Under the pieces are notes generated by a model that was not told the origin of the DNA, did not search any database, and saw only the letters and a program-made list of their open reading frames with translations. A stretch of DNA of 64,000 nucleotides, from contig CAIIXF020000007.1 in assembly GCA_903813345.2 (NCBI GenBank), forward strand, positions 16,536,714 to 16,600,713. The letters are read 5' to 3'. Below, piece by piece: positions 7,091 to 61,366 of this stretch (positions within the stretch are counted from its first letter, which is position 1; each line of letters opens with the position of its first letter). The stretch is from Owenia fusiformis (taxonomy: Eukaryota; Annelida; Polychaeta; Sabellida; Oweniidae). Made by a program: the position numbers and the translations under genes.

Positions 7091-8589
7091 TAGTGGGCTG
7101 TATAGCAAGGTTGGTCGGGGTCGGGAGCTGGGGATAATTTAATTGTTTAAATATAACAATATAATCATCCTACATTAGAATCCACTCAGTCTAACATCAA
7201 TTTCTGGTGCGAAAGTTGTCATTTTTGAGTTTTACCCCCCTTGAAGACAAATTCTTGGGGGTACTATGACAAATGCTTATAACTAAAGAAGTATTTATTT
7301 GACAATCTTCATTTTTGGCATGGGTAATTAACAGGTATGTAAAAGTAGAATTTGAAAAATTCATACAAATCGGGTGATTAGTCTATTCTAAAGATAATAA
7401 TTCAGGTATTTTCAAGGGTCAATTTCAACATTTTCTGAATGTCGACATGAAGTGAAAATAACACTATGACCCAATGACATATTTATTGAATGTTTTTAGG
7501 CTTTAGAAAATAATTTGACTATATAAGCTAAAATAATAACATAAGAATTGTGGCATATTGATAATTCTTCATCGCCATTCAGGCACAAATAAACCCCACC
7601 CCCTCCCAATTTTCGAATATAAAGGTCTATATCTGAAACTTCCTCAAATAGCTATATTTCAGAAACTATTACAGCCTATATTCCAAAATTTCTCATGGTG
7701 ATTTTACACATCATACTCTGCATAATAGGCATATAATTGAGATTTATCCATTCTATAGTTAATAATTAAGGTATTTTCAAGGTTCAATTTCAACATTTTC
7801 GGAATGTCGCCATGAAGTAAAAATTACATGACCCAATGACATATTTATTAAATGTTTTTAGGGTTTAGAAAATGATTTGACTATATAAGCTAAGATAATA
7901 ACATAAGAATTGTACGATATTGATAATTCTTCATCGCCATCCAGGGATAAATACCCCCCCCCCCCATTTGCGAAAATCAACGTTTTTACCTGGAACTTTC
8001 TCAAATAGCTATATTTCAGAAACTATTTACAGCCTCCATTCCAAAATTTCTCTTGTTGATTATACACATCATACTCTGCATATTATACATATAATTGAAG
8101 TCTTAACACTTTTCTGAGGGTGTACCTAATAATAATAGTATATTTATTAGACATCTTAGAAATCAAAATATATGTTTTGGAAGGTTGTCACAATACTACA
8201 AGAGAGATATTTTGGATTGTCATCATTTTTAAGAATATTACAAAAACATATTTATATTATGCAACAATCACCTATTTTCATTTAACATAATTGGAATATA
8301 TTATCCAGCTAGTTTTAATGATTTCAGTATATGCATTTAATCCTGAGATGCACTTAGGTTTGATATCCATGAAGTAATCATTTCTTTTTTGTTTGAAATT
8401 TAGTCTCTAAGCATAAAACTATAAGCATTAAATCTGTATGCTTTAGGATATGCATAATCAGTACCGATAACATTCAATTGACAACATTCAGTCAATATTC
8501 TTGACAACATTCAATAATGATTAATATGTTCGACCAATATGTTTTTGAATAACTTCACCAATACAATTTGCTTGAGTATTCACTTCAAC

Positions 8590-9210
8590 ATTTGCTTTAA
8601 GCTGAAAAGATTTCATCTATGTCATTGTTGACTTCATTATCTGTTATATCATCATCAATTTCATCATCTGATTCTCAGTTATAAATGTCTACCAACTCTT
8701 GTGGAAGAATGGCATTTGGATTTTCAGCCCATTGTATATAAAGTTCGCCATCTTCTAGGATCCACCCATTTTCTGCTGGAGAAGGTATATCCATTTGGGC
8801 TTTGTGAGACTGCTTCCATATGTAACCTTGGTAGTTACATCTTTTACAATGTTGAACAAGGGATGACCTGCATGGAGAAAGGAGACTGATGTCTATCCCA
8901 TCATAGTTGTTGATAGAGGCTTGAGGTTGAAATCTGTTGGCAAAATTTATGTATGGTACATGATTGATGTCTGTGTTTTTTTCCCCGTACATGATGCACA
9001 CAAATCTTTCAAGTTTTTGAAGATGCCTTTGGTCAAGAACTATAGATTTTCCAAGTTCTTGAAAGATTGCATACATGTCCTCTCTATTGATCAGCTGTTT
9101 CAGAGGGTTTATTTTTCCCTTTCTCATGAAGGCACTGGTGGTATCACACCCTGTAAATCAGTGGATACCGATCAGGGTGACTGTGATTGGATCATCTAAA
9201 CCTAACTGTC
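8590..9210 (-). pseudogene. Decayed ORF in left arm of the palindrome (GCDTTSAF / LERFVCIMY family)
   Basis: The open part is 8675-9127 (150 residues). Upstream, in frame but past one stop, is TGCDTTSAFMRKGK; after it come LERFVCIMYG, then LVQHCKRCNYQGYIWKQS and PSPAENGWILEDGELYIQW. This series matches my recollection of a widespread, uncharacterised invertebrate family linked to mobile DNA (GCDT...GK, LERFVV..Y, LLQHxKRAxYQAG..W, PSPxxWGW). A stop also sits before the acidic tail (ESDDEIDDD), where the other arm has an open codon. The function is unknown; I infer that it belongs to the element. Confidence 0.6.
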
Positions 9211-11814: not shown

Positions 11815-12470
11815 ATAGTATTCACATATCTGATATGAACAAAATCGCTCTACTACTTTTCGAGTTATAGTTAAATACATAAAAGTGGCGGCCATTTTGA
11901 AAAATGTTCGCCTTCTACCAAAAGTATCTTTGTGCCATGCTTATAGTATTCACAAACCAAATATGAATAAAATCGCTCCACTACTTTTCGAGTTATAGTA
12001 AAATATGTTAAAATGGCGGCCATTTTTCAAAATGGCCACCTTCTACCAAAATTGTCATTAGACAGTGTGCCATGCTTATAGTATTCACATACTAAATATG
12101 AACAAAATCGCTCCACTGCTTTTCGAGTTATAATAAAATACATTAAAAATACGTCAAAATGGCAGCCATTTTCCAAAATGACCGCCTTCTACCAAAAGTG
12201 TCTTTAGACAGTGTGCCATGCTTATAGTATTCACATACCAAATATGAACAAAATTGCTCCACTACTTTTCGAGTTATAGTAGAATACGTTAAAATGGCGG
12301 CCATTTTGAAAAATGGCCACCTTCTACCAAAAGTGTCATTAGACAGTGTGCCATGCTTATAGTATTCACATACCAAATATGAACAAAATCGCTCCACTGC
12401 TTTTCGAGTTTCAGCAAAAATCGTAAATTAACAAGTAAAGGCCGCCATTTTTCAAGATGGCTTCTATGTG
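11815..12470 (+). repeat. ~134-bp satellite, right block (about five units)
   Basis: Continuation of the array at 6842-7090. ATGGCGGCCATTTT-type starts recur near 11886, 12012, 12160 and 12294, each followed by CTTCTACCAAAAG and ACTTTTCGAGTTATAG. One unit is shortened. ORFs over this block on either strand are by-products of the repeat. Confidence 0.8.
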
Positions 12471-25900: not shown

Positions 25901-28900
25901 CTCCAAAGTCTTTATATATTGTTTTATCGTCACTATCCTCGGGAAGTACATCACCATCTGGTTTGGTGAAATCATCAGAAGGATCCCCATTAAGTGTGCC
26001 CATTAGACCAGAGGTTGAGGCTGACTGTGGGGCTGTTACAGTGATGGACAGACTGCGTACTGACACCGATACATTTAGAGAAAATCCTGTGACGAAGATA
26101 GGCGATAAAACAATGAAGAGAGAATTATATTATAACTAAAATCTTGATGTGACATTTTTTCGTCAGAAGGATCACCATTAAGTGTGCCCATTAGACCAGA
26201 GGTTGAGGCTGACTGTGGGGCTGTTACAGTGATGGACAGACTGCGTACTGACACCGATACATTTAGAGAAAATCCTGTGACGAAGATAGGCGATAAAACA
26301 ATGAAGAGAGAATTATATTATAACTAAAATCTTGATGTGACATTTTTTCGTGGCACTGAATTATTTCGATTTAATCGTAAAGGTCATTAAAATGATTCAT
26401 TAAGAATGTGCCCAACTACAAAACAGTAATATATGAGAAAGTGTATACCTGACACAAAAGAAGCAGTAACCAGCCCTTTGGTGTTATCAAAATCTATGCT
26501 GAGACCAGTTTCTTCTAGCGTTCCCGGTTGTTCGGAATTTGATAACTCCTCAATTTCACTCGTTTTGTCTTCCCCGTTGACACGTATAATCATATCTACC
26601 AAAAATAAATTCAAAATCGGTGAATCTATTTCAAGTTTAATTAAATCAGCTATACTCATATCAAATATTTCAAAATGAAATACTACACTATAAATTATTC
26701 AATAATTCGAGTGAAATACATTATTTCACGAGGCGCTTGCGTGATTCGTTTTTATTCCATGATCACTGAGATGGAACGCTCCAAAATCAAGTCAAATTCC
26801 TTGGCCTGGCCGGAGAAACTCAGACAGAACAACCTTACTCACCCATAGATTTTTTGATCAATTTTGAAAAAAAATCCTCTAAAAACCATCCAGAACGATT
26901 TTATCGATAGATTTAACGTCTTTTTCGATATCTTTTTCGTCCACATAACACTTGAAAAGGTTCAAGGACGTTTCCATTGATTTAATGGTGTCGTTCTGGA
27001 TGGAATTTTAGAGGATTTTTTTCTTGAAACTGCGAACGAAGGATGGGGAATATTACAAGAGTGCCACTCTGCAAAGTATTCATCATGGACTCAATAGGCA
27101 CATACAAAGTGAATGTCTAGCAATGATATAATAAAACAAATATTTCATTATATGTTCGGGCAATACCTGTTGCACTTTCAATGATTTTTGCAGCATGTAT
27201 TTCCCTCGCCCTTCGGGCTGCGGGCAATACATGCTACAAAAATCATTGAAAGATGAACAGGTATTGCCCTCCATAGAATGAAATATTTGCTTATCATTCC
27301 ATGATGGTGTTTCCTGCAATCTGATTGGTCCATGTGACACCATCATGAAATAATATATAGTTTTTACTACTAGTATACTAAGTGCAATGTAGCGAAACGT
27401 TTTTTCGACTTTCGTCTGCCATATTGGATTTTTACTAGTTCATGAAAACAATTTCGTATGCTTCAAATTGTTTTCTTATATTTACAGATGTGGGTTTTTT
27501 ATTCTCAAATTATAAATTGTGATGAAAAACAGATATTTATAGCAAAGTGCAAATATTAGTACGCGTCAGCTTAAACTAATCGCCATCGAATTTTTCAGTA
27601 ACAGTCATATCCTGGATGGAAATCTTAGGCGTCGAGCTACTTAACTTTATTCCATGATAAGAGGAGGGAAAGCCCCAGAGTTTCAAGATGACAGACATAA
27701 TTACCTCTCTTGCTTACCACCTTCGTTCGTTCGAATTTTCATCGGCTAGTTATCAAATACTACACTTCGATTGGATGTTATAATTGATATAGGCATATTC
27801 CGTACACCTTTCTTTATCTTGATGTGAAATGAGAAGCTATGATATTGGTTAACACGCCAGAAATGAACATAATATTATTCGAAGCGTATTTCGAAACTTT
27901 TGAAACCGCCATTGATGACGTCATTTGTTTGTCGACTTTTGACCAATCAGCGACCGTGTCATCTCAATACAGATTTACATTATAAGCGTATGTCATCTTT
28001 GAACCCTGGTGTTTCTCCCCCTCTGTTCCATGATGGTGTTTCCTGCAATTTGATTGGTCCATGTGACATCATCATGGAATAATATATAGTATTTACTACT
28101 AGTATACTAAAAATCCATGTACTGTAAGTTTATGCAAACTCACCAACCAAGTTGTTGTGTAATTCCACACAGAATTTATCGGAAAGTTCATCCTTGGCAG
28201 CAAATGCTGTGAAGACAGTCGCTCTGGTAGCGGTACCATTGGCAGTTAAAGCAGCTGACGTTCTTCCATGTAGATTAAAATCTGTTGTTCTAATAAGCCA
28301 GTATTCCCCCAAGCCATTAAATGTGTATTGTTTGCCATCTAAAGTGCGAACGTGTGGATCACCCCAAAACCAAGCTGCAATATAACAAACGTAACTTGGA
28401 TGAGCTGGAATGGGTTTCTTATTGGGTAAACAATGATGTATTGAGAATCACGTAACTTCGTTTCCGTCATCTTCAAGGTAAGAAACCTTTCATATTATTT
28501 ATATATCACAGACATTTGGAAAACGAACAGTAAAAAACACAACTGGAAAACAAATCCAAAAACGGTATACTTACTCCTACGGGGAGGAATGTATCCTTCA
28601 CAAGTATCAACCGGCCGACGTCTCATGAATATATCACAATTGTCAGATGCTTCACAGCAATAATAACGCCCCATGACATCACCTTCTACATGCTGTACAC
28701 TTGTTCTATCGTGGTAGCGGAGAAAATGGCCTGCCCCAGAGTTGATATCAGTCAATAAAGGTCCCCCAGATGACCACCAGGTAACCCACCAGTCATCACT
28801 GTAGCAGCATAACTTAAATCAGATAGAGGTATTGAACATTTTCAGAAAGGCCTCGGTTGAGCTAGAACCTTCTGTTTAATTGCCCCTAGTATTCCCACGC

Positions 28901-31900: not shown

Positions 31901-34900
31901 TAAATTCAGTTCACCATATCGATACCTATCCTTTAAATCAACGGCTCCAAAGAAAAATGGCGGATATTCAACGACAACGACAAAAAATGGACGAAAATCT
32001 CGTTAATGTCTGACATTATAGCTGGCTGTAAATTCAAAGTAGCAATCCAAAAGATTTGAACTAATCGATGATCACTTCGTGTGTGTTTTAAAAGTTGGTG
32101 CATATTCCCATGTTAACTCAATACGTTCAGTCAGAACATTGGTTGATTAAGTAGTATAGTAGGAACAAGGGGTTCCCATGCACCCATAAGGTGTGAATAA
32201 GTTACATACATTTTTGTAATCCCTAGGCTGTCTATTTAATGAATTCATTTGTTAACATTGCCAACTAATGTCCCATAGTACTTTTATGGCGGCATTCAGT
32301 TACCATGGTTACGCATCTTTAGACATCTTACCTTGGTATCTTAAATCATTTGTAGCTCTGTCATTATTTGGTCTATAGAAATGATATTGGTACCAAATTA
32401 AACCTCGTTAAATTTCCAATAAATTTCTGATATTCAATTATGCAAATTATCTAATTTGCATAAATTATGACGTCATCAATCTATTTTTGGTTTAGAATTT
32501 CCAACTATAGCAACGAATCTATCAGAACTTAGGCCGTATGGCAAAATTTCTGAAAGGTTTTGTCCTTTATTCTATTAGTAGAAGGTATAAGCAACATAAA
32601 AGTGAAAACAGATTCAAAATTGAATCAGTATTACGAAAGTTATGTAACTTTCGAGGCAGCTATCGTGAATGTCATTATTTGACAATAATATACATTACAT
32701 CTTACCTTGGAGTCTTGAATCAATGTAGCTTCGCCATTATTTGGTCTATAGAGATGATATTGGTATCTGATTAAACCTTACTAAATTTACTATATGGTTA
32801 CAATATTGAGTTATGCAAATTAGCTAATTTGCATTAATTGTGACGTCATCAATCCATTTTTGGTTCAGAATATCCTAGTATAGCAACATATCTATGAGAA
32901 CTGAGGCCGTATGACAGAATGTGTGCATAGTTTTGTCCCTTATTTGATGAGTGGAAGATATAAGCAACATTAAAGAGACAACAAATCTTCAAAATTGGAT
33001 CAGAATTAACAAAATTATCCAGCTTTGGAGGCAGCTACTGTGAACGTCATTGTTTTGACAATTATAAAAAGAATATTAAATTAACAAAAAAAGTAACAAC
33101 CATAGTTGTTTCAGTCTTATTGAGTAAAAATGTGCATGTATTGAACTGAACTAATAAGTATGTGGAAAGGTTACATGCATTTTGACTATCATTCACAGGG
33201 GTCAAAACGGTTATCTCGATCCTGTATATTAAAGATCCAATCTTATAATTTACCATGCACATTCAATGATTCATATAAATAGTATACATATAGTCTGATT
33301 TTCATCATATTCTTCATATTCTTGATTCTTAAAGCATCTGAAGTATATAGCAGGATTAGAAGTGAAGATGATTCATCATATTGTTTATGTTATATTTCTA
33401 ACATTTCAGATGCTATGGTAACATCACTTGATAATGAGGTTTTTACATTTCACGTTCTTAATGAGTTAAAAGTAAGTTATTCTCCCTTTGCTTTAGAGAT
33501 AAATAGTCGCATGAATTTGTTTAGAAAAATTATAACTTAATTAATTTAACCCCCCCTGACAGCCCCCATATTTGAAGATTTTGGTGAAACCTGGCAAAAT
33601 ACATTAATTATTAGGTTTTAGTAGCCCCAAGAATCTATACAGGGGCCCCAAGTGGCCCCCAGAAGCTATACTGTGCTCCCCAGAAGCTATATGTTGGCCC
33701 CCAGAAGCTGAATAGTGGCCCCCAGGAGCTATACGGTGGCTCCCAGAAGCTATACAGGAAACCCTGTTGCCCCCAGGAGCTATACGGTGGCGCTCAGAAG
33801 CTATACAGGGGCCCCCAGTGGCCCCAAAAAGCTATACGGTGGCCCCCACAAGCTATACAGGGGCCCCCAGAAGCTATACTATGGCCCCCAGAAGCTATAC
33901 AAGGGCCCCCAAAAACTATACTATGGTCTCCAGAAGCTATAATGTGGCCCCCAGTGGCCCTCGGAAGCTATATGATGGCCTCCAGAAGCTAATTAGTGGC
34001 CCCCAGGAGCTATACGGTGGCTCCCAGAAGCTATACAGGAAACCCTGTTGCCCCCAGGAGCTATACGGTGGTGCCCAGAAGCTATACAGGGGCCCCCAGT
34101 GGCCCCAAAAAGCTATACGGTGGCCCCCACAAGCTATACGGGGGCCCCCAGAAGCTATACTATGGCCCACAGAAGCTATACAAGGGCCCCCAGAAACTAT
34201 ACTATGGTCTCCAGAAGCTATATGGTGGCCCCCAGTGGCCCTCGGAAGCTATATGATGGCCTCCAGAAGCTAATTAGTGGCCCCCAGGAGCTATACGGTG
34301 GCTCCCAGAAGCTATACAGGGGACCCCAGTGGCCCCAAGAAGCTAAACGATGGCCCCCAGAAGCTATACAGGAGCCCCAAAAAGCTACATGATGGCCCCC
34401 AGAATCTATATCTAGGCTCCCAATGGCTCCCAGAAGATGTGAAGGGCCCCCAGTAGCCCCTAGAAGCTATACGGTGGCCCCCAGTGGCCCTGAAAGCTAT
34501 ATAGTGGCCCCCAGAAGCTATACAGGGGCCCACAGTGGCTCCCAGAAGCTATATGATGGCCCCCAGAAGCTATGCAAGGGCCTGCAGAAACTGTACTGTA
34601 TCCCCCAGAAGCTATACAGGGGCCCCCAGTGGCTCCCAGAAGCTATACGATGGCCCCCAGAAGCTATGCAAGGGCCCGCAGAAACTATACAGTAGCCCCC
34701 ATAAGCTATACGATGGCCTCCAGAAGCTATACAGTGTCCCCCAATGGGCCACCATATAGCTTTGGGGGCCACCGTATAGCTTCTAGGGGCTACTGGGGGC
34801 CCTGTATAGCTTCTGGGAGCCATTGGGGGCCATCATATAGAATCTTGGGGCCGTCATGTAGCTTCTGGGGGCTGCTGTATAGCTTCTGGGGGCCATCGTA

Positions 34901-37900
34901 TAGCTTCTTGGGGCCACTAGGGTTCCCTGTATAGCTTCTGGGTGCCACCGTATAGCTCCTTGGGGCCACTAATTAGCTTCTGGGGGCCATCATATAGCTT
35001 CTGAGGGCCACTGGGGGCCACCATATAGCTTCTGGAGACCACAGTATAGTTTTTTGGGGGCCTTGTATAGCTTCTGGGGGCCATCGTATACCTTCTGGGG
35101 GCCACTTGGGGCCCCTGTATAGATTCTTGGGGCCACTGTGGGCCATCATATAGCTTCTGGGGGCTTCTGGAACATAATAATTAATGTATTTTGCCAGGTT
35201 TCACCAAAATCTTCAAATATGGGGGCTGTCAGGAGGGGGTTAAATTAAGTTATAATTTTTTTTAACAAATTCATGCGACTATTTTTCTCTAAAGCAAAGG
35301 GAGAATAACTTTCTTTTAACTCATTAAGAACGTGAAATGTAAAAACCTCATTATCAATAGTGATGTTACCATAGCATCTGAAATGTTAGAAATATAACAT
35401 AAACCATATGATGAATCATCTTCACTTCTAATCATGCTATATACTTCAGATGCTTTAAGAATCAAGAATATGAAGAATATGATGAAAATCAGACTATATG
35501 TATACTATTTATATGAATCATTGAAAGTGCATGGTAAATTATAAAATTGGATCTTTAATATACAGGGTCAAGATAACCGTTTTGACCCCTGTGAATGATA
35601 GTCAAAATACATGTAACCTTTCCACATACTTATTAGTTCAGTTCAATACATGCACATTTTTACTCAATAAGATTGAAACAACTATGGTTGTTACTTTTTT
35701 TGTTAATTTAATATTCTTTTTATAATTGTCAAACAATGACGTTCACAGTTACTTCCTGCGAAAGATATTTGGATTTTGATATAATAGCTTTCCCACGGAG
35801 CATTTGGACAGCTCAATGATTGTGACCTTTGAAATCGAATTAAGTCGATCAGCGGCTTACTTTTGGTCTCTAACTGTGTCTTACATCAGTATCATCAATC
35901 CGTGTAAGTGTTGGAGCGCTGGAGTACTTCTTTTTTATCAAGACTTTTAATTGTTAGTCGAGTGAATCGTTTTACTGCCAAATTCCAATATGGCGGTTTC
36001 TGCTCGGACATTTTCGTAAATCTCCGGAGGTTGTCCGAACCTAACTAATTTTCAAAATTCATTTCGTTTGTTGCGTATCTCGCACCTAGCAAACTGCCAT
36101 ATTTGAAATAGGTCTAAAAAACTTTCACTCGATGAACAATTTACAAGTCTTGATCGAAAAAGAAGTACTCCAGCGCTCCAATAACACGGATTGATGATAC
36201 TGATGTAAGACACAGTTAGAGATCAAAAGTAAGCTGCTGATCGACTTAATTCGATTTCAAAGGTCACTATTGATCAGCTGTTCACTTCTCCATTTGAGAG
36301 CCATAAGTTTCAAAATTTAACATGGCTCTCGAAGTGAGTAAGTTCACAGTAGCTGCCTCCAAAGCTGGATAATTTTGTTAATTCTGATCCAATTTTGAAG
36401 ATTTATTGTCTCTTTAATGTTGCTTATATCTTCCACTCATCAAATAAGGGACAAACTATGCACACATTCTGTCATAAGGCCTCAGTTCTAATAGATATGT
36501 TGCTATACTAGGATATTCTGAACCCAAAATGGATTGATGACGTCACAATTAATGCAAATTAGCTAATTTGCATAACTGAATATTGTAACCATAAAGTAAA
36601 TTTAATAAGGTTTAATCAGATACCAATATCATCTCTATAGACCAAATAATGGCGAAGCTACATTGATTCAAGACTCCAAGGTAAGACGTCATGTATATTA
36701 TTGTCAAATAATGACATTCACGATAGCTGCCTCGAAAGTTACATAACTTTCGTAATACTGATTCAATTTTGAATCTGTTTTCACTTTTATGTTGCTTATA
36801 CCTTCTACTAATAGAAAAAAGGACAAAACCTTTCAGAAATTTTGCCATACGGCCTCAATTCTAATAGATACGTTGCTATAGTTGGAAATTCTGAACCAAA
36901 AATAGATTGATGACGTCATAATTTATGCAAATTAGATAATTTGCATAATTGAATATCAAAAATTTGTTGGAAATTTAACGAGGTTCAATTTGGTACCAAT
37001 ATCATTTCTATAGACTAAATAATGACAGAGCTACAAATGATTTAAGATACCAAGGTAAGAGTCTAAAGATGCGTAACCATGGTAACTGAATGCCGCCATA
37101 AAAGTACTATGGGACATTAGTTGGCAATGTTAACAAATGAATTCATTAAATAGACACCCTAGGGATTACAAAAATGTATGTAACTTATTCACACCTTATG
37201 GGTGCATGGGAACCCCTTGTTCCTACTATACTAAAGCCTCAACAAGATGAAATATATTTGTTATTGTCCTCATACAGGAGGTTTCACTTGGTTTTCAAAA
37301 CTTTTGGTTACCTCCGATTATACCCCGGAGACCTAAACCCAAATCGATATCGGGAGAAGTACAGGGTGTCAAAAAACAACGGCACCCCCCTCTACAGCAA
37401 AAAGTACTTAATATTACATGGTGTGTCGTATCTCATTTTAAAGACAATTTAATTCTGGAGTTACCTGAGAAATTTCAGCTTTATATCATATAATTTTACA
37501 GATTTGCAGCTGATTCTTAGTAGTTGGTATGACCACCAGTTGCTGCTCAAACAGCAGCTTATCTAGACGGATATGATTTCAATGAAAATTCAGATAAATG
37601 TGTAGCATTGCATAATCCTCTAAGCACTTTCCTCAAATTCTTCAGAAATACATCCTCGCTGTATCTTTTTTCAAGAGGCTCTTCGTCCATCAGTTCCTAT
37701 ACCCTGTTTTTCAGAACTGAACCCATATGTTCAGTGCAGTTGAAATCTGAGCTAATTCTTTCATATTCCACTTTCTGAAGATTTGACCTTTAACCAGTAT
37801 AAGAGAGCAGCAAATAAAGTACCAAAGTAGCAAACTTTGAAACAATGTAACTTTTTTAATATTAAGTTTTATTAAATGAAATTTGATGAATAACTCCAGA

Positions 37901-55052: not shown

Positions 55053-56199
55053 TTACAGTTTAATATTGTTAGTCTCACAGGAGTGTTTTTTATAGATATT
55101 CTCTGGATCATCACTAGATGACATTGACTTAGCCAACTTTTCCGATGTTATACATGAATCCTTCATTATTCCTGATCTAGAGTAGTGCTGAACACTATCA
55201 TAAGAAAACCAACCAATGTGATTCATAATATCTGATGAGGACTTAGCTGCTCCTGAGAGCATCAGGGTAATTGCACAACCTGCTCTAAGACTGTGGGGAG
55301 TCTCCCCTTCAAAAATACCCAGGGTAGTCAAATATAGGCGAAGTCGATCATACATTGCATTATAAGATAATCTATCATTTAGAACTATACCAGATTCAGT
55401 TCAGCATCTCCCTGATATAAAACTCTATACCCTTAACAGGGCAAATGATCTCATCCTCACATTTTTTTAGCACATAAACATTGCTTTTATCACCTCTTAA
55501 TGTCTTTCCAAATGTTCTATTGACAACAAAGCCTGAACCATCTTCAAGTCTAGATATTTCTTGACCTTTCAGGTATGATAAGTCACCTGCTCTTTCACCC
55601 CCGCTAAATTGCAGCTTCAAAAAGGCCTGATCTCTCAATAAAACAAATTTTTGTTTCAATGTAAGGTCTTTTCTTCCTAGCTCCCTATCAATATACTGGA
55701 CTATTGACCTAAGTTTTGATCTAAAAAGAGGCTTTGCCTATTTTGGTTTAACATGGCTCATAGCTTGTTCTTCTTTTATGAATTTTAGATATTGTCTGAT
55801 CAAATTTGACTTAACTGGATTCCCCAGACTTTTGACATTATCCCATTCACCTACTTTTCCCATGTCGTTAAAGGCTTTCGTGAGTTGATATATCATATTT
55901 TCTACTGTGCCTGCTGCTAGACGTTTTGGACAAGAACAGTTACATCCACCTTGCTTACCTAAAATGATACATGTAATATTGTGTACTTGAGTTTTACCTG
56001 ATAAATCTTTCCATATTAAAAACTTTCTTATGTCTTCTGGTGTTACAGAATTCAATGGGTTACATTCACCATACAAACATTCAGCGAATGAGGTTAAAGA
56101 GTTTATTGCACTGTATATCAATTTTATTTTCCTATCGAAATTATATAAAACGTGCTCCCCTGAATCAATATAGATGCTCCACAGGCGTAACAACCCCAA
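55053..56199 (-). pseudogene. Tyrosine recombinase region of the retroelement
   Basis: Recognised by the C-terminal catalytic block HSLRAGCAI, then GW and a Tyr-containing HYSRSG segment, as in phage-integrase-fold recombinases of DIRS/Ngaro elements. The N-terminal part has a Cys cluster (CNCSCPK). Open in several stretches; treated as a fossil part. Confidence 0.78.
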
Positions 56200-56769
56200 G
56201 ACTTCACTATAATGGACGAATAAAGAAGTATAAAAATGCCCATCTGAATTTTGTTATATTTATTCTCCTTGGGAAGAGAGAAAATGGCCTTGAACCTAGA
56301 TTGCACGCGCGATCTGAAGTAGGCCTACGTGCAATGTATTTCTGATGTACAAGAATAATCTAATTGTACATTCCGTATTGCACCAATCAATCGAAATATT
56401 GTAAAACAAGCATATTTCTAAATTGAGTAAAAGGAAGTGTTTTAAACAAAAATGATAATAATAATATCAATATATATATATAATTTGCGCAAACTTTCAA
56501 ATTTCTGTCAAGATCATAAAGTTGTTGTGTGATCAAAATAAGCTCAGTTTCATCACAAGGGCGCCGGGGATTAGTATTGTGTTAAAAATTAAATCCACAT
56601 AATACTCCCATCGCCAAGGCCCTGATACAGTGTGAATCTGACCTTATGTAAGCGAGGTATTATATTGGGCGTGTTCACTCAGGTGTTGTAATAATCGCTC
56701 GCGAATCACAGCTCTGTCACGGTGAATAGAGGAGACACGACTCGAATTCAAATTAGTTTTAGCCTACTT

Positions 56770-56965
56770 CAAACGTATTCCGAGTGAACACAATCAGGGG
56801 GCCCAAACATTGTGAACAATTTATTCACAATTACAGGAGTGAGCGTGATAAGCTCTACTCAAAATGTAATCTGAGTGAACTCAACATGGGGGCCTAAACA
56901 TCGTCAACTATTCATTCATAATTACAGGAGTGAACGTAACCAGCTCTATATTCATGTAGTCTAAT
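56770..56965 (+). repeat. Two-copy ~92-bp tandem repeat between the retroelement parts
   Basis: CTGAGTGAAC...GGGGGCC(C/T)AAACATNGTNAAC and ACAATTACAGGAGTGANCGT repeat once, starting near 56778 and 56870. Non-coding spacer between the RT-RNase H and recombinase parts. Confidence 0.65.
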
Positions 56966-57305
56966 GTGCCTATGTAGACGTCATCGTAGGCTCATGAATA
57001 TAGAGTTCAATTGATCGAAACCGAAACAACACGTTCACTGAAGTGTGATTTATTAAGAACAACAAACGATTATTTGTATTTTTATATTCTAATTCATTTC
57101 CTTATGCTATGATGAAGTTTATTCAACGGGAGTCGCAATTATTTATATATACCGTACAATAAACACTTTAAGCTTTTCACTATTGAAACACTTTTCTTAA
57201 AAGAGTTCTGTGAAGAAATCCTTCTCTGAACTTCTCTGACCCGTTCATCTATGTCACACCAATACACCATTTTTCCATCAATATTATTCTGAAAGTACAA
57301 ATATT

Positions 57306-59522
57306 TCAATTATCAAGCCGAAATGCCCACAAGTTAAACCTGATTCCATAAAGATCCTTGACATAGCCACATTTTGAAGGGTACAATAATGCAGATTTGC
57401 TTCCTTTCTTTGCTAATAACAACTTGGTTTTTGACATAGCCTCCAGTGTTGGCCACCAAGGCTGTAAAACCGAAAACTCTGGTACAATAATTGTACACCT
57501 CTTGACCTTAGACTGTTTCAAAAATTTCACCAAGTGGAGAATGAGGCAAAATGGTGGGAAAACATAAGGGTTTTTCTCAACTTCCAACTTCTGACTGAAA
57601 ACGTCAACTCCGGAGCTACCAGGTAAAGGATATGGGGTAAAATGTCTTAAAGGTTTTCCATCAAAGCCAATCACTGAATTTGAATCAACAGCCATGAGAT
57701 CTACAGTATGAGGGCCAAAACGAGATTCAATGAGATCCCATAATTCTCTTGTCAGTTTTGCATCTTTATTAGAGAGCCTTCTGGAAGGAATATCTGCTGG
57801 ATTTTCCTTACTGGGAATATACCACAACTTCAGATCTATATTGAACTCAACGCAAGCTTGAAACATTTCCTTCAATATTGCTAACATTTTCGAATCTCTA
57901 TAACCACCATTGGACCAAGCATCTACCACAGCCCTATTATCCACAAATATGTAAGTTCTTGAGTTTGATAAGGTGTCCTTGTATGCCAAGATACCACTAA
58001 GAACAGCTTGAGCCTCTTTGATATGGATACTTGATTCTGAGACCTCCCAATAGTCTCCAGAGACAATGTCATCTGCCTGAGATTTCAATACAATACCGTA
58101 CGCATAGAGAGACGAGTCTGTACATAACACAAAACGATTGTGGTATTCTTTCCTCCATGGTACAATTCCATCCCAGTTATCTAAGAATTTCCAATAAGAA
58201 ATTTCATCTCTGAGTTCAGGTGTAATGGTAACATTCCTACTATTCTTTGTTGCCAAAGAAATAGCCCTGTTTGCCACCTTTGTATACAACTTGGAGCCAG
58301 GTACAACCAGAATCATTGAGATACATTTTCCTACAAATCTTTGGAGAACCTTTAAACTGACACATTCTTTAGAAAGAAGGTATTCCCTAATCTCAATAAA
58401 TGACAGCTTTTTGTCTTCTGGTAGGCGAAAACACAAATCATTTGTGTCAACAATGAAACCTAAGTATCTCAAGAGTGTTGAGCCTTCTAGATTGCATTTC
58501 TGTAAGGCCAGGTAATAGCCTAGGCTTGACATGACATGAATGAATGTGTGAACTTGACCAAGGCTACGTTTTCTGAAATCCGAGTTACTTTCATTGACCT
58601 GTCTATTGACAATCAACAATCTATCATCGATATATTGAATAGTGACCAAGCCCATTGATCTAAGGTATGACGTTGCGAGCATTCCTACAGATTGATAAAT
58701 GTATGGGCTTACTGACCAGCCAAAAGGAAGGGTTCTGTACGCCATTACCCATCCCCCAAACACTATACCAAAGTAGGTGGACGACTCCTCAGACAACAAT
58801 ATATGATCGTAACCAGACTTCTCATCTGTTGAAAAAAGAAGGGCGCCTGATTCCACCAACCTGTGAACAGAGTTCAATGTTTCAAGTTTAAAAGGCATAT
58901 TTCTCATCCACAAATTTAGATAACGTTCGTCATGGCACATTCTAGGCTTTGTAGGTTCTATAAGAATAGGCATGACTACTTTCGGCAACTGACACTCGCC
59001 CAGTTTCCCAATTAATTTGATAGCTCCAGATTTTATTTTCCCAACTAGATTAGATCTTATGAACTCCACATGATCCTTGCAATTTTCAGCATTCTTGAAA
59101 AATCTTTTTGGAGGTGAATCACTGTCATAATACTGGCCTTTAAATTGACCTTTGAAATGAGTGAAGAATTCAGAGACATTGACACCATCTTTTAACCACT
59201 TGTTTATATTTACATTTTCTGATTCCTCTAGTAATGTGGCCCATTCCGATAGGAAAGGTTCTCTGTGTAAGTTGCCAGAGAGGAATTCATTTGGATTCAG
59301 TACACACTGTATATGACATTGACAATGTTCAGCTTCATGAATATGTTTTAAGTGTTGTCTATTGTCTTCACAAGAACCTACACCAGTAGAACCACCATCT
59401 CCAATGTCTACATGCACATAACTTTGTGTGTTCTCATGAACCTGTATCAAGTCTGGTCTGAAACTCCCCCTGTACTCCCAGTCTGGAATTTTGTAAACCT
59501 CAGATATCAGGTTTTCCTGCAA
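57306..59522 (-). CDS. Reverse transcriptase-RNase H ORF of the retroelement (738 residues)
   Basis: Long open frame. The RT part is seen in TRTLPFGWSVSP-like and QYIDDRLLI blocks (catalytic Asp pair), after an N-terminal region of about 170 residues. The RNase H part follows (CTDSSLYAYGIVL, IKEAQAVL, FVDNRAVVDAW, PSKENPADIPSR), then a C-terminal stretch with DLMAVDSNSV and FTPYPLPGSSGVDVF, typical of DIRS-group pol ends. An AG acceptor lies a few bases before the homologous region starts. It looks whole. Confidence 0.88.
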   Translation of the reverse strand: MQENLISEVYKIPDWEYRGSFRPDLIQVHENTQSYVHVDIGDGGSTGVGSCEDNRQHLKHIHEAEHCQCHIQCVLNPNEFLSGNLHREPFLSEWATLLEESENVNINKWLKDGVNVSEFFTHFKGQFKGQYYDSDSPPKRFFKNAENCKDHVEFIRSNLVGKIKSGAIKLIGKLGECQLPKVVMPILIEPTKPRMCHDERYLNLWMRNMPFKLETLNSVHRLVESGALLFSTDEKSGYDHILLSEESSTYFGIVFGGWVMAYRTLPFGWSVSPYIYQSVGMLATSYLRSMGLVTIQYIDDRLLIVNRQVNESNSDFRKRSLGQVHTFIHVMSSLGYYLALQKCNLEGSTLLRYLGFIVDTNDLCFRLPEDKKLSFIEIREYLLSKECVSLKVLQRFVGKCISMILVVPGSKLYTKVANRAISLATKNSRNVTITPELRDEISYWKFLDNWDGIVPWRKEYHNRFVLCTDSSLYAYGIVLKSQADDIVSGDYWEVSESSIHIKEAQAVLSGILAYKDTLSNSRTYIFVDNRAVVDAWSNGGYRDSKMLAILKEMFQACVEFNIDLKLWYIPSKENPADIPSRRLSNKDAKLTRELWDLIESRFGPHTVDLMAVDSNSVIGFDGKPLRHFTPYPLPGSSGVDVFSQKLEVEKNPYVFPPFCLILHLVKFLKQSKVKRCTIIVPEFSVLQPWWPTLEAMSKTKLLLAKKGSKSALLYPSKCGYVKDLYGIRFNLWAFRLDN

Positions 59523-59714
59523 TAACCAATTATAAAAGTGATATACTGTATGACATAAGAATGGAATTCTCTAAAAGTACTGTGCATGTAATGGAGAAGA
59601 TGGTTCCACCGGTGTAGTCCAAACAGAAAAGAAAATTTTCCTGTATAAAGGGTTTAGTTACCCCAGGACCAAGACCAGTGTTACCACTTCCTAGACTAAG
59701 TAATTCATCTTTCA

Positions 59715-60320
59715 TTATTCATTTTTGATCGATTTATCCTTGAGATCTTTCATAATCGCACAATCTTTAAACATGTGACCAGGCCTTTCGCAGAAATGGC
59801 ACCTCCCTTGGAAACCTCTTCCCCTCCCCCTTCCAAAGAATCGTGTTGCTCCCCTAAAGCCTCGGTTTTGATTGAATTGAAACCCAAAACCTTGATTTCT
59901 CGAATTCTGAAAGGGAACCATGTATGGCATGAAAGAAGGCTGGTTGTTTTGGTTATTCTCATTATATGATTTCTCACTCTTTGCATTTTTTTGAGTTATT
60001 TGTAGGCACTTTGAAAGGCTTTTCATAATCTTATCTCCTGAAGATGAAAAACTTGTTATTACAAAATTGGCAACATCTAAGGATTCAGAAAATTTAGTGG
60101 CCATGTTACTTATTTCAGTGTATGTCTCTTTCTCTTTATGATCTACAGATTTCGCAGCATCTGCTAGTTCTTCTAACGCGAGTAAAAGGTCAGCTTTTTT
60201 CGCATCCTTGGACAAGGCTAATCTTCGTACCTTCTTTACTAGGTCATCCACTTTCTCCTTCTCCATGGATTCTAATTTTCTTTTTAGATTTGCCATCTCG
60301 GACATCTCCTGAAAGTTCAA
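59715..60320 (-). CDS. Gag-like ORF of the retroelement (201 residues)
   Basis: An N-terminal Lys/Glu-rich predicted coiled coil, a Gln/Asn-rich middle, an Arg/Gly-rich RNA-binding stretch (GRGRGRGFQGR) and a CCHC zinc knuckle CHFCERPGHMFKDC near the end. It sits just upstream of the RT ORF on the same strand. A CTTTCAG acceptor precedes its first codons, so it may be spliced to an upstream exon. Confidence 0.8.
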   Translation of the reverse strand: MNFQEMSEMANLKRKLESMEKEKVDDLVKKVRRLALSKDAKKADLLLALEELADAAKSVDHKEKETYTEISNMATKFSESLDVANFVITSFSSSGDKIMKSLSKCLQITQKNAKSEKSYNENNQNNQPSFMPYMVPFQNSRNQGFGFQFNQNRGFRGATRFFGRGRGRGFQGRCHFCERPGHMFKDCAIMKDLKDKSIKNE

Positions 60321-61366
60321 AATAACTGAAATTAGTCAAAGCTAAACCAAATCCTATTCAAAACAAAGCTTGATAAGAATAAATTAGGTATTCAATAACA
60401 ATTTTTGCTCTACCACTGAGCCCCAAGTTCGACTGATTCACTCTATTCAATATTGCATAAGCATTGCGGCCATGCCTCCCATAAAAAGGTAGCACTATTA
60501 TTGCAGGAATAATCTAAAATAGTACATTTTTGTTCCAAGAGTATTTTGCCAGTTAAGTCCATTAATTTCAAGGCTATGATCAAATAGTATGCTATGTCAC
60601 AAATTCGACATAATGATTGTTTTGAAGCATTGCGATATATGTACTCATGCCCAATACTATTACAAATAACATGCTTTCGTACACAATACAATGTTAATAA
60701 AAGCTATTCAGGTCGCGTTAGTCACTTTTCTAGGAGTCGTTGCATGTCACATTTAAATTTCATCATTCAACTTTGCTGATTTCATTCATTTCAAAACATA
60801 CAAAACATTAAATGAAATAAATCTATGTTGTATTCCATATTTCTATTCAGTTTTATCACTAGTTGGCAAATAAAATCATCCTCACATATCCATATACCTA
60901 CACTGCTATATAGCCTAGTAATTTTCCACTTCAAAAAACTTCAGTCAGAGGAATGCTCAGAATTGTTACTTGCAAGCAAGTTTGTCATATTCATTTGTAA
61001 AATATTCTGAGTCCTATAAGTCAAATTTACCCTTTCCACATACCCCTTAGAAAGTCCCATATTTATGTGTACACTGATGGTAGACTTGAGATTGAGTTAC
61101 TCCTATATGCTTATGGTTACGTTTTATTTTTATAAAGTATTATTTAATAGCCATGTGTAATATCAATTTTGAAATTAATTTAGTTACATCTGTATTCAAT
61201 ATGAACATGATGTTGTTTCAACAGCAACTTGGATCATCTCTTTATGATGTCACATGTAAACTTAAGTACTTTTAATCTGTATCTTGTATCAAGCTTCAGT
61301 TCCCAAGTCTTTCAATAACAGAAAAATCCCATAATCTAGTTCAAGTATACTCACACTATCCACCAG

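Follow-up and report, generated by a model that had tools for sequence, protein, structure and literature searches.

A foldback transposon family of the annelid Owenia fusiformis with a strand-switching minisatellite and a candidate Academ-like transposase locus

INTRODUCTION

The FB elements of Drosophila have long inverted arms with internal tandem repeats. Tetris of Drosophila virilis makes target-site duplications of 8–10 bp and is presumed to be a Mutator element, an autonomous partner not having been found (PMC4079207; here and below, statements on published systems refer to the cited portions of the papers). Galileo, a member of the P superfamily, has duplications of 7–8 bp in D. willistoni (PMC4168063), and its arms grow by tandem units and by recruiting internal sequence in inverted orientation (PMC3573991, PMC4168063), coding sequence included (PMC4168063). 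As in the case of Tetris, both the motor of a foldback element and the origin of its palindrome can be hard to tell without an autonomous partner (PMC4079207). Among the Academ transposons, AcademX, which has been tied to a nuclease, makes duplications of 3–4 bp, and AcademH, tied to a helicase, of 9–10 bp (PMC10045372). Here we analyze an element lying in a 64,000-nt stretch of the Owenia fusiformis genome (contig CAIIXF020000007.1, positions 16,536,714 to 16,600,713, forward strand; hereafter the window). The element proves to be a non-autonomous foldback DNA transposon whose arms meet in a 21-bp minisatellite that switches strand, and its family numbers roughly a hundred copies that have intact ends. 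We consider it probable that the family is Academ-like and mobilized in trans, and that its palindrome arose by fold-back break repair.

RESULTS

A foldback family with 3-bp target duplications

We searched the 498-Mb assembly (525 contigs, the twelve large ones, C1–C12, summing to ~477 Mb) with the first 20 bases of the element and obtained 199 exact matches (101 forward and 98 reverse); the same bases written backwards gave 0 forward and 0 reverse matches. Pairing of the ends was restricted to the first 100 of the 199 places (C1–C6), where 90 ends form 45 convergent pairs with a median length of 4,389 bp, 28 of them between 4.0 and 4.9 kb. At this length the label of a miniature inverted-repeat transposable element (MITE), usually under 600 bp (PMC3573991), fails. 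The sample comprised 40 stretches from 37 places, and many of these were top matches to the window query; L016, L044 and L048 were left out of the counts as no end was recognized in the stretch. A 3-bp target duplication of varied sequence is present in 33 of 34 elements; a dimer described below was left out of this count and its outer duplication read apart.

Sites related to the insertion flanks, with no element in them, were also found. The one for L046 is identical at 129 of 132 positions and gapless across the join (the repeat concerned also occurs at window positions 27659–27790). For L012, the site is a nearby inverted copy, diverged, of the element's own flank; it too is gapless across the join, with 126 of 140 identities. 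A third, for L042, agrees at 68 of 75 positions with one gap away from the join, and a candidate for L025 lies within tandem repeats and is ambiguous. The exact ends, convergent pairs, 3-bp duplications and empty sites bear out an earlier note on the window, which had called the element a foldback and proposed to search the genome for other copies. The foldback family is real, young and fairly uniform.

At C2:970579-980910 (L039 501-10000 + L040 1-832), copies of 5,168 and 5,166 bp form a head-to-tail dimer with 3 differing alignment columns, the bases TA at the joint common to both and an outer duplication CAT; its source could be an excised, end-joined circle or a tandem duplication. A 15-kb copy (L029 1780-10000 + L030, C1:37172921-37187877) contains a coding insert inside an arm. 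Its frames are a repetitive one of 376 amino acids (aa), whose Pfam match to DNA_pol_D_N (E = 2e-8) may be due to its repeats, one of 988 aa, and one of 188 aa with no significant match. We considered this copy as an autonomous one and dropped the idea, because the coding insert begins within the arm and the frames differ; we take it as a nested insertion.

Structure of the window element

The left border of the window element reads TTAAG followed by TAGTATAG, the right border ATACTA followed by AAGCC. AAG thus stands on both sides of the ends TAGTATAGTAGG and CCTACTATACTA, the 3-bp duplication that the earlier note had reported. The inverted arms are ~1.4 kb long and 96–98% identical by repeat analysis. 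Positions 32152-32324 pair with 37061-37233 (173 nt, 99% complementary), 32326-32933 with 36453-37060 (608 nt, 97%) and 33054-33428 with 35359-35733 (375 nt, 98%), and further pairings exist. Of the element's 20-mers, 1,955 recur in its reverse complement, whereas none of 20 shuffles gave a single one; among 12 window tiles of the same size, the two overlapping it contain 605 and 125 such 20-mers and the other ten 0–257. The element has the structure by which a foldback is recognized, i.e. long inverted arms, internal tandem repeats and little else. Tandem arm units, put at 372 bp beforehand, were recovered as two per arm, 373 bp apart and 80–81% alike. The previously given extent of 5.1 kb agrees with the 5,082 bp measured here, but as these coordinates include a nested 592-bp insert, the element proper comes to ~4.48 kb.

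The arm units contain the motifs ATGCAAAT, ATTTGCAT and TGACGTCA (window positions 32440-32475 and 32813-32848, and their mirror positions), which are possible, putative sites for the transposase or a host factor. The motifs are absent from the examined stretch of L050, a distant relative of the candidate transposase locus described below.

A family-wide strand switch in the minisatellite

The 21-bp period runs from ~33.6 kb to 34743 on the + strand and from 34745 to ~35.17 kb on the opposite strand. Units GTGGCCCCCAGAAGCTATAC of the two orientations are separated by a single A, and the switch sequence CCCCCA-A-TGGGCC leaves a spacer of at most one base, confirming the flip at 34745 claimed earlier, where no spacer had been noted. 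A 29-base sequence around the junction is present at 0 to 2 edits in 29 of 36 entries (window copy included; the dimer was counted twice, and two of the 29 are its halves). In four of the other entries (L035, L036, L046 and L047) the minisatellite is almost gone; the locus with coding capacity described below is the remaining junction-less entry, besides two discrepant copies considered in the Discussion. Some copies show the long array first and others the short one, reflecting insertions in both orientations.

Array lengths on both sides were measured in 25 of these 29 entries, and side types were compared in 25 of the 29. With the junction used to orient the copies, the longer array lies on the same side in 25 of 25 that could be measured: the long side has 817–1,554 nt (median 1,043) and the short side 390–484 nt (median 432). 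The asymmetry is accordingly not a private event of the window copy, an idea that we dismissed. The earlier note had attributed the unequal arrays to growth that followed palindrome formation. This is borne out in part: copies do differ in array length, but the asymmetry and the junction are family-wide and predate the spread of the family. The palindrome accordingly arose a single time and off centre, ahead of that spread. For the short array of the window copy, the best match is the middle of the long array (88% over 410 nt), ~260 nt off the junction, a pattern in the aligned arrays that suggests an off-centre fold-back followed by repeat turnover.

Folded as single-stranded DNA, the 301 bases around the junction reach −107.5 kcal/mol, compared with −53.3 kcal/mol for 100 shuffles, as expected for an inverted repeat. 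Within the array, a frame at window positions 33716-34273 stays open for 185 aa because the 21-bp unit is a multiple of three; it is probably no gene.

Arms diverge mostly independently

Arm relatedness was compared among the 29 junction-bearing entries. The two partner arms of an element are each other's nearest relatives in only 5 of 58 cases, and the arms of separate copies differ by ~2% at median. In the inner arm segments, 20 columns are diagnostic of the side, 14 of which belong to one indel. Most of the 25 copies with both sides keep both side types and three are converted: in L023 both sides are of the long-side type (99.8% alike), and the short-side type prevails in L021 and L022. General homogenization of the arms was dismissed on these two counts (5/58 and 3/25). 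Because partner arms are so seldom nearest relatives, arm-to-arm conversion is an exception that has affected a minority of copies since the spread.

A candidate transposase locus that is itself a palindrome

One locus, L031+L032 (C6:37684700-37698240), is a 13.5-kb element with the ends of the foldback family and an AAT duplication; its first 727 bp are 97% identical to the window element. Six open frames of 132–473 aa follow one another on one strand between positions 2048 and 7495. They may be read as exons of one transposase gene, because a 457-aa and a 132-aa piece match single long frames elsewhere in the genome. This transposase is the likely motor of the family, presumably acting in trans, to judge from the common ends.

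The outer 5,021 bp of the locus are repeated in inverted orientation, the two arms being 99.92% identical. Inside lies a remnant of the original right end (positions 8099-8525), 99.5% like arm positions 272-699. About 272 bp from its tip, this old right end gives way to an inverted 5.0-kb copy of the left half, and the two sides of this joint have a 4-base microhomology, GAAA, in common. A search for minisatellite-like units in the locus, at up to 4 edits of an 18-mer, found none. The transposase gene with the family's ends was found at a single locus, which itself seems to be a recently folded palindrome.

The transposase group

Searching the genome with the 457-aa piece, we scored all 84 candidates and obtained 53 matches: both arms of the coding locus, L049 at 70–78% and others at 21–38%, some of these in uninterrupted frames that reach 1,622 aa. 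No second near-100% locus was found among the 84. Two relatives, L050 and L051, are 99.7% identical to each other, 6.43 kb long, and have intact 1,526-aa frames with 33–34% identity to the L031 piece; their inverted ends of 518–521 bp start with TAGTGGAATGGG, and their duplications are AAG and TAC. As judged by eye, L049 has a right end similar to that of the foldbacks, and near it lies a block 84% like a 56-bp arm block of the coding locus and the window element. The TAGT ends and 3-bp duplications of L050 and L051, together with the right end of L049, indicate that this transposase group goes with ends of this kind.

In the C-terminal part, 14 sequences have invariant E3, A4, D5, D28, D30, G84 and D86 (pattern EAD...DxD...GxD), an acidic arrangement that we take to be like that of XPG/FEN nucleases. 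No helicase was found among the Pfam matches of the 1,526-aa relative or of the scanned L031 and L049 pieces (open frames of at least 120 aa). A Pfam match of the transposase to DUF6589 is sub-threshold (E = 0.14), and there is one locus in the genome that the L031 query and, above the cut-off, DUF6589 both hit. With 3 bp in 33 of 34 family elements, AAG at L050 and TAC at L051, the duplications have the 3–4 bp length of AcademX, and we regard the group as Academ-like, probably AcademX. At 8675-9157 on the − strand, the window holds a C-terminal relic (FTGCDTTSAF...) of an Academ-like transposase of this group.

A nested MITE that probably moved with its host

Over about 570 nt, the 592-bp insert is 75% like its own reverse complement. 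An initial search gave 893 candidate places for its repeat family, of which 40 were scored, and 40 of 40 match over nearly the full length at 96% identity or more. A foldback copy starting at C8:12515323 carries a nested copy of this MITE that is 98% identical. The distance to the respective element end is 891 bp both for window base 36342 and for its counterpart, C8:12516214, and the closest relative of the window's inner arm is at the same C8 place (100% over 437 bases, the next at 98%). Given the equal offset and this relationship, an element already carrying the MITE probably transposed, insert included.

Features in the window

The features of the element are collected in Table 1. Elsewhere in the window, frames at 55738-60335 (− strand) show matches to a reverse transcriptase (PF00078, E = 9e-11) and an ALOG domain (E = 1e-17) and a sub-threshold zinc knuckle, presumably representing a DIRS-type retroelement. 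At 11815-12410, a 135-bp unit is repeated in tandem (4.4 copies, 84% matches).

Table 1. Coordinates of the foldback element and its parts in the window
Feature	Position	Strand	Details
Left target-site duplication AAG	32149..32151	.	
Right target-site duplication AAG	37234..37236	.	
Foldback element	32152..37233	.	5,082 bp; 4,481 bp minus the nested insert and one copy of the insert's duplication
Left end segment	32152..32324	+	Starts with TAGTATAGTAGGAACAAGGGG
Right end segment	37061..37233	-	Finishes with CCCCTTGTTCCTACTATACTA
Two left-arm units	32351..32986	+	373 bp apart, 81% alike; ATGCAAAT, ATTTGCAT, TGACGTCA in each
Two right-arm units	36442..37035	-	373 bp apart, 80% alike; motifs ATGCAAAT, ATTTGCAT, TGACGTCA again
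Inner arm segment ('mid'), long-array side	33054..33560	+	
Inner arm segment, short-array side	35243..35733	-	
Long 21-bp minisatellite array	33609..34743	+	281-bp higher-order duplication; left edge approximate
Strand-switch junction CCCCCA-A-TGGG	34743..34745	.	Common to 29/36 extracted elements
Short 21-bp minisatellite array	34745..35172	-	Right edge approximate
Nested palindromic MITE-like insert	35750..36341	.	592 bp; 9-bp duplication GTTCACAGT at 35741-35749 and 36342-36350

DISCUSSION

We propose the following course of events. The ancestor of the family would have possessed one good end, the inner segment and the 21-bp minisatellite. A break would then have been repaired with fold-back template switching: the copying strand, on its way outward along the array, would have turned around at a repeat out of register and run back over the arm as far as its end. 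One such step would yield a second functional terminus, and it would leave arrays of unequal length and a strand switch almost free of spacer. The resulting palindromes, good at both ends, could then have spread by cut-and-paste, making 3-bp duplications at the insertion sites and using the transposase that an autonomous element, Academ-like and probably AcademX, provided in trans; thereafter the arms would mostly have diverged independently, with occasional conversion and changes in array length. At the coding locus, which would show an event of this kind at a younger stage, a break in the right end may have been repaired by copying the element's own left half, closed on the remaining end homology, and the same fold-back route would have founded the foldback family. 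Yeast fold-back inversions have loops of up to thousands of bases (PMC7467729), and Marzo and colleagues proposed a double-strand-break repair route of this type for Galileo (PMC3573991). A farther-reaching version of this scheme, in which, after a break in one end, an autonomous Academ-like transposon folded at the 4-base microhomology and copied its own intact end to become the 13.5-kb palindrome, and the same step within a minisatellite founded the family, is put forward tentatively, with chances slightly below even.

Palindromes could also come from a deletion between two neighbouring insertions in inverted orientation, i.e. from head-to-head dimers rather than from copying within one element. 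Dimers do occur in the family, as at C2:970579-980910, though head to tail, and the end joining of two copies would leave microhomology as well; however, arms that are 99.92% alike at the coding locus sit badly with a median difference of ~2% between arms of separate copies, and the 84 scored candidates contained no second near-100% locus for the transposase piece. We therefore regard such an origin as unlikely. The coding locus might instead hold an unrelated transposase gene captured between arms that are moved by another element with the same ends. A near-100% transposase at one locus only, with an inner part not common to the foldbacks, would fit this idea, but distant relatives of the transposase have TAGT ends and 3-bp duplications too, and L049, a relative at 70–78%, has a similar right end as judged by eye; capture seems to us decidedly improbable.

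Little speaks for kinship with the Mutator-type foldbacks (FB, Tetris) or with P/Galileo beyond the plan of long arms with internal tandem units. The earlier note's comparison with Drosophila FB holds for this plan; a duplication of 3 bp counts against placing the element among the Mutator-type foldbacks. With 3 bp in 33 of 34 elements, against 8–10 bp for Tetris and 7–8 bp for Galileo in D. willistoni, and with ends common to a transposase that has no Pfam match to those groups, we ruled out either membership and leave it only a very slight probability. That the switch might be an artefact has in its favour that palindromes and minisatellites are generally difficult to assemble. Yet the junction is the same in 29 of 36 elements with different flanks and in both orientations, and the 3-bp duplications lie outside the elements. 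An assembly join of two separate loci, which the earlier note had named as fatal to its reading, is excluded by the recurrence of the junction, and we give an artefact of any kind practically no credence.

Several observations weigh against our account of a trans-mobilized, Academ-like family born by fold-back repair. The foldbacks have just ~0.73 kb per end in common with the coding locus, and no non-palindromic progenitor of the inner segment or the minisatellite was found. L018 shows a switch of another kind and L043 is without a recognized junction; L024, L025 and the window copy have mixed side types at single columns. L014 has no duplication (ends TTT/ATG; 1 of 34) and is perhaps a recombinant between two copies. 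The sampled copies lean to the best query matches, which over-represents intact ones. The search for empty sites proposed in the earlier note succeeded, without gaps, for two other insertions (L046 and L012) but yielded none for the window copy, for which 40 out of 1121 candidates were scored. For the copy starting at C8:12515323, the right end did not turn up in the two short stretches examined. As for the superfamily, the assignment to Academ rests on duplication length, the missing helicase match and the nuclease-like C-terminus. The transposase pieces have no significant match in Pfam, NCBIfam or PDB, and no Pfam nuclease matches any of the 14 C-termini (14/14). Pfam recognizes no nuclease or transposase domain in these proteins. 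The top PDB profile matches, four exonuclease 1 sequences at the GCD motif (E = 0.24–0.25), are not significant and at most suggestive of a nuclease; they are followed by unrelated receptors (E = 0.7–1.2).

What makes this genome informative is the coexistence of a young foldback family with one candidate locus for its transposase. This locus has the ends of the family and keeps an almost unmutated palindromic duplication whose joint is still readable. If our account is true, the one-step birth of a palindrome becomes directly testable, with source candidate and family in one genome. One search of an open-licence library of papers gave no report of an Academ foldback, and the foldback plan would be extended to a transposase group for which no such report was found there.

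Among the known systems, Drosophila FB is likened here by description only: its plan is the same, while the ends and the duplication length differ according to the earlier note. Like Tetris, the Owenia family is a non-coding foldback having long arms with tandem units, which in Tetris measure about 220 bp and vary in number; a strand-switching minisatellite sets it apart, none being mentioned in the cited portion of the Tetris description (PMC4079207). Galileo likewise has long, internally repetitive arms, combined with a P-type transposase and duplications of 7–8 bp, unlike the Owenia family (PMC3573991, PMC4168063), and its arms reach up to about 1.26 kb in D. mojavensis, compared with 5.0 kb at the coding locus. 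With AcademX, its probable lineage, the family has duplications within the 3–4 bp range in common (PMC10045372). Thus the foldback plan is the known part, as in FB, Tetris and Galileo, and the new parts are the transposase group and the readable birth of the palindrome.

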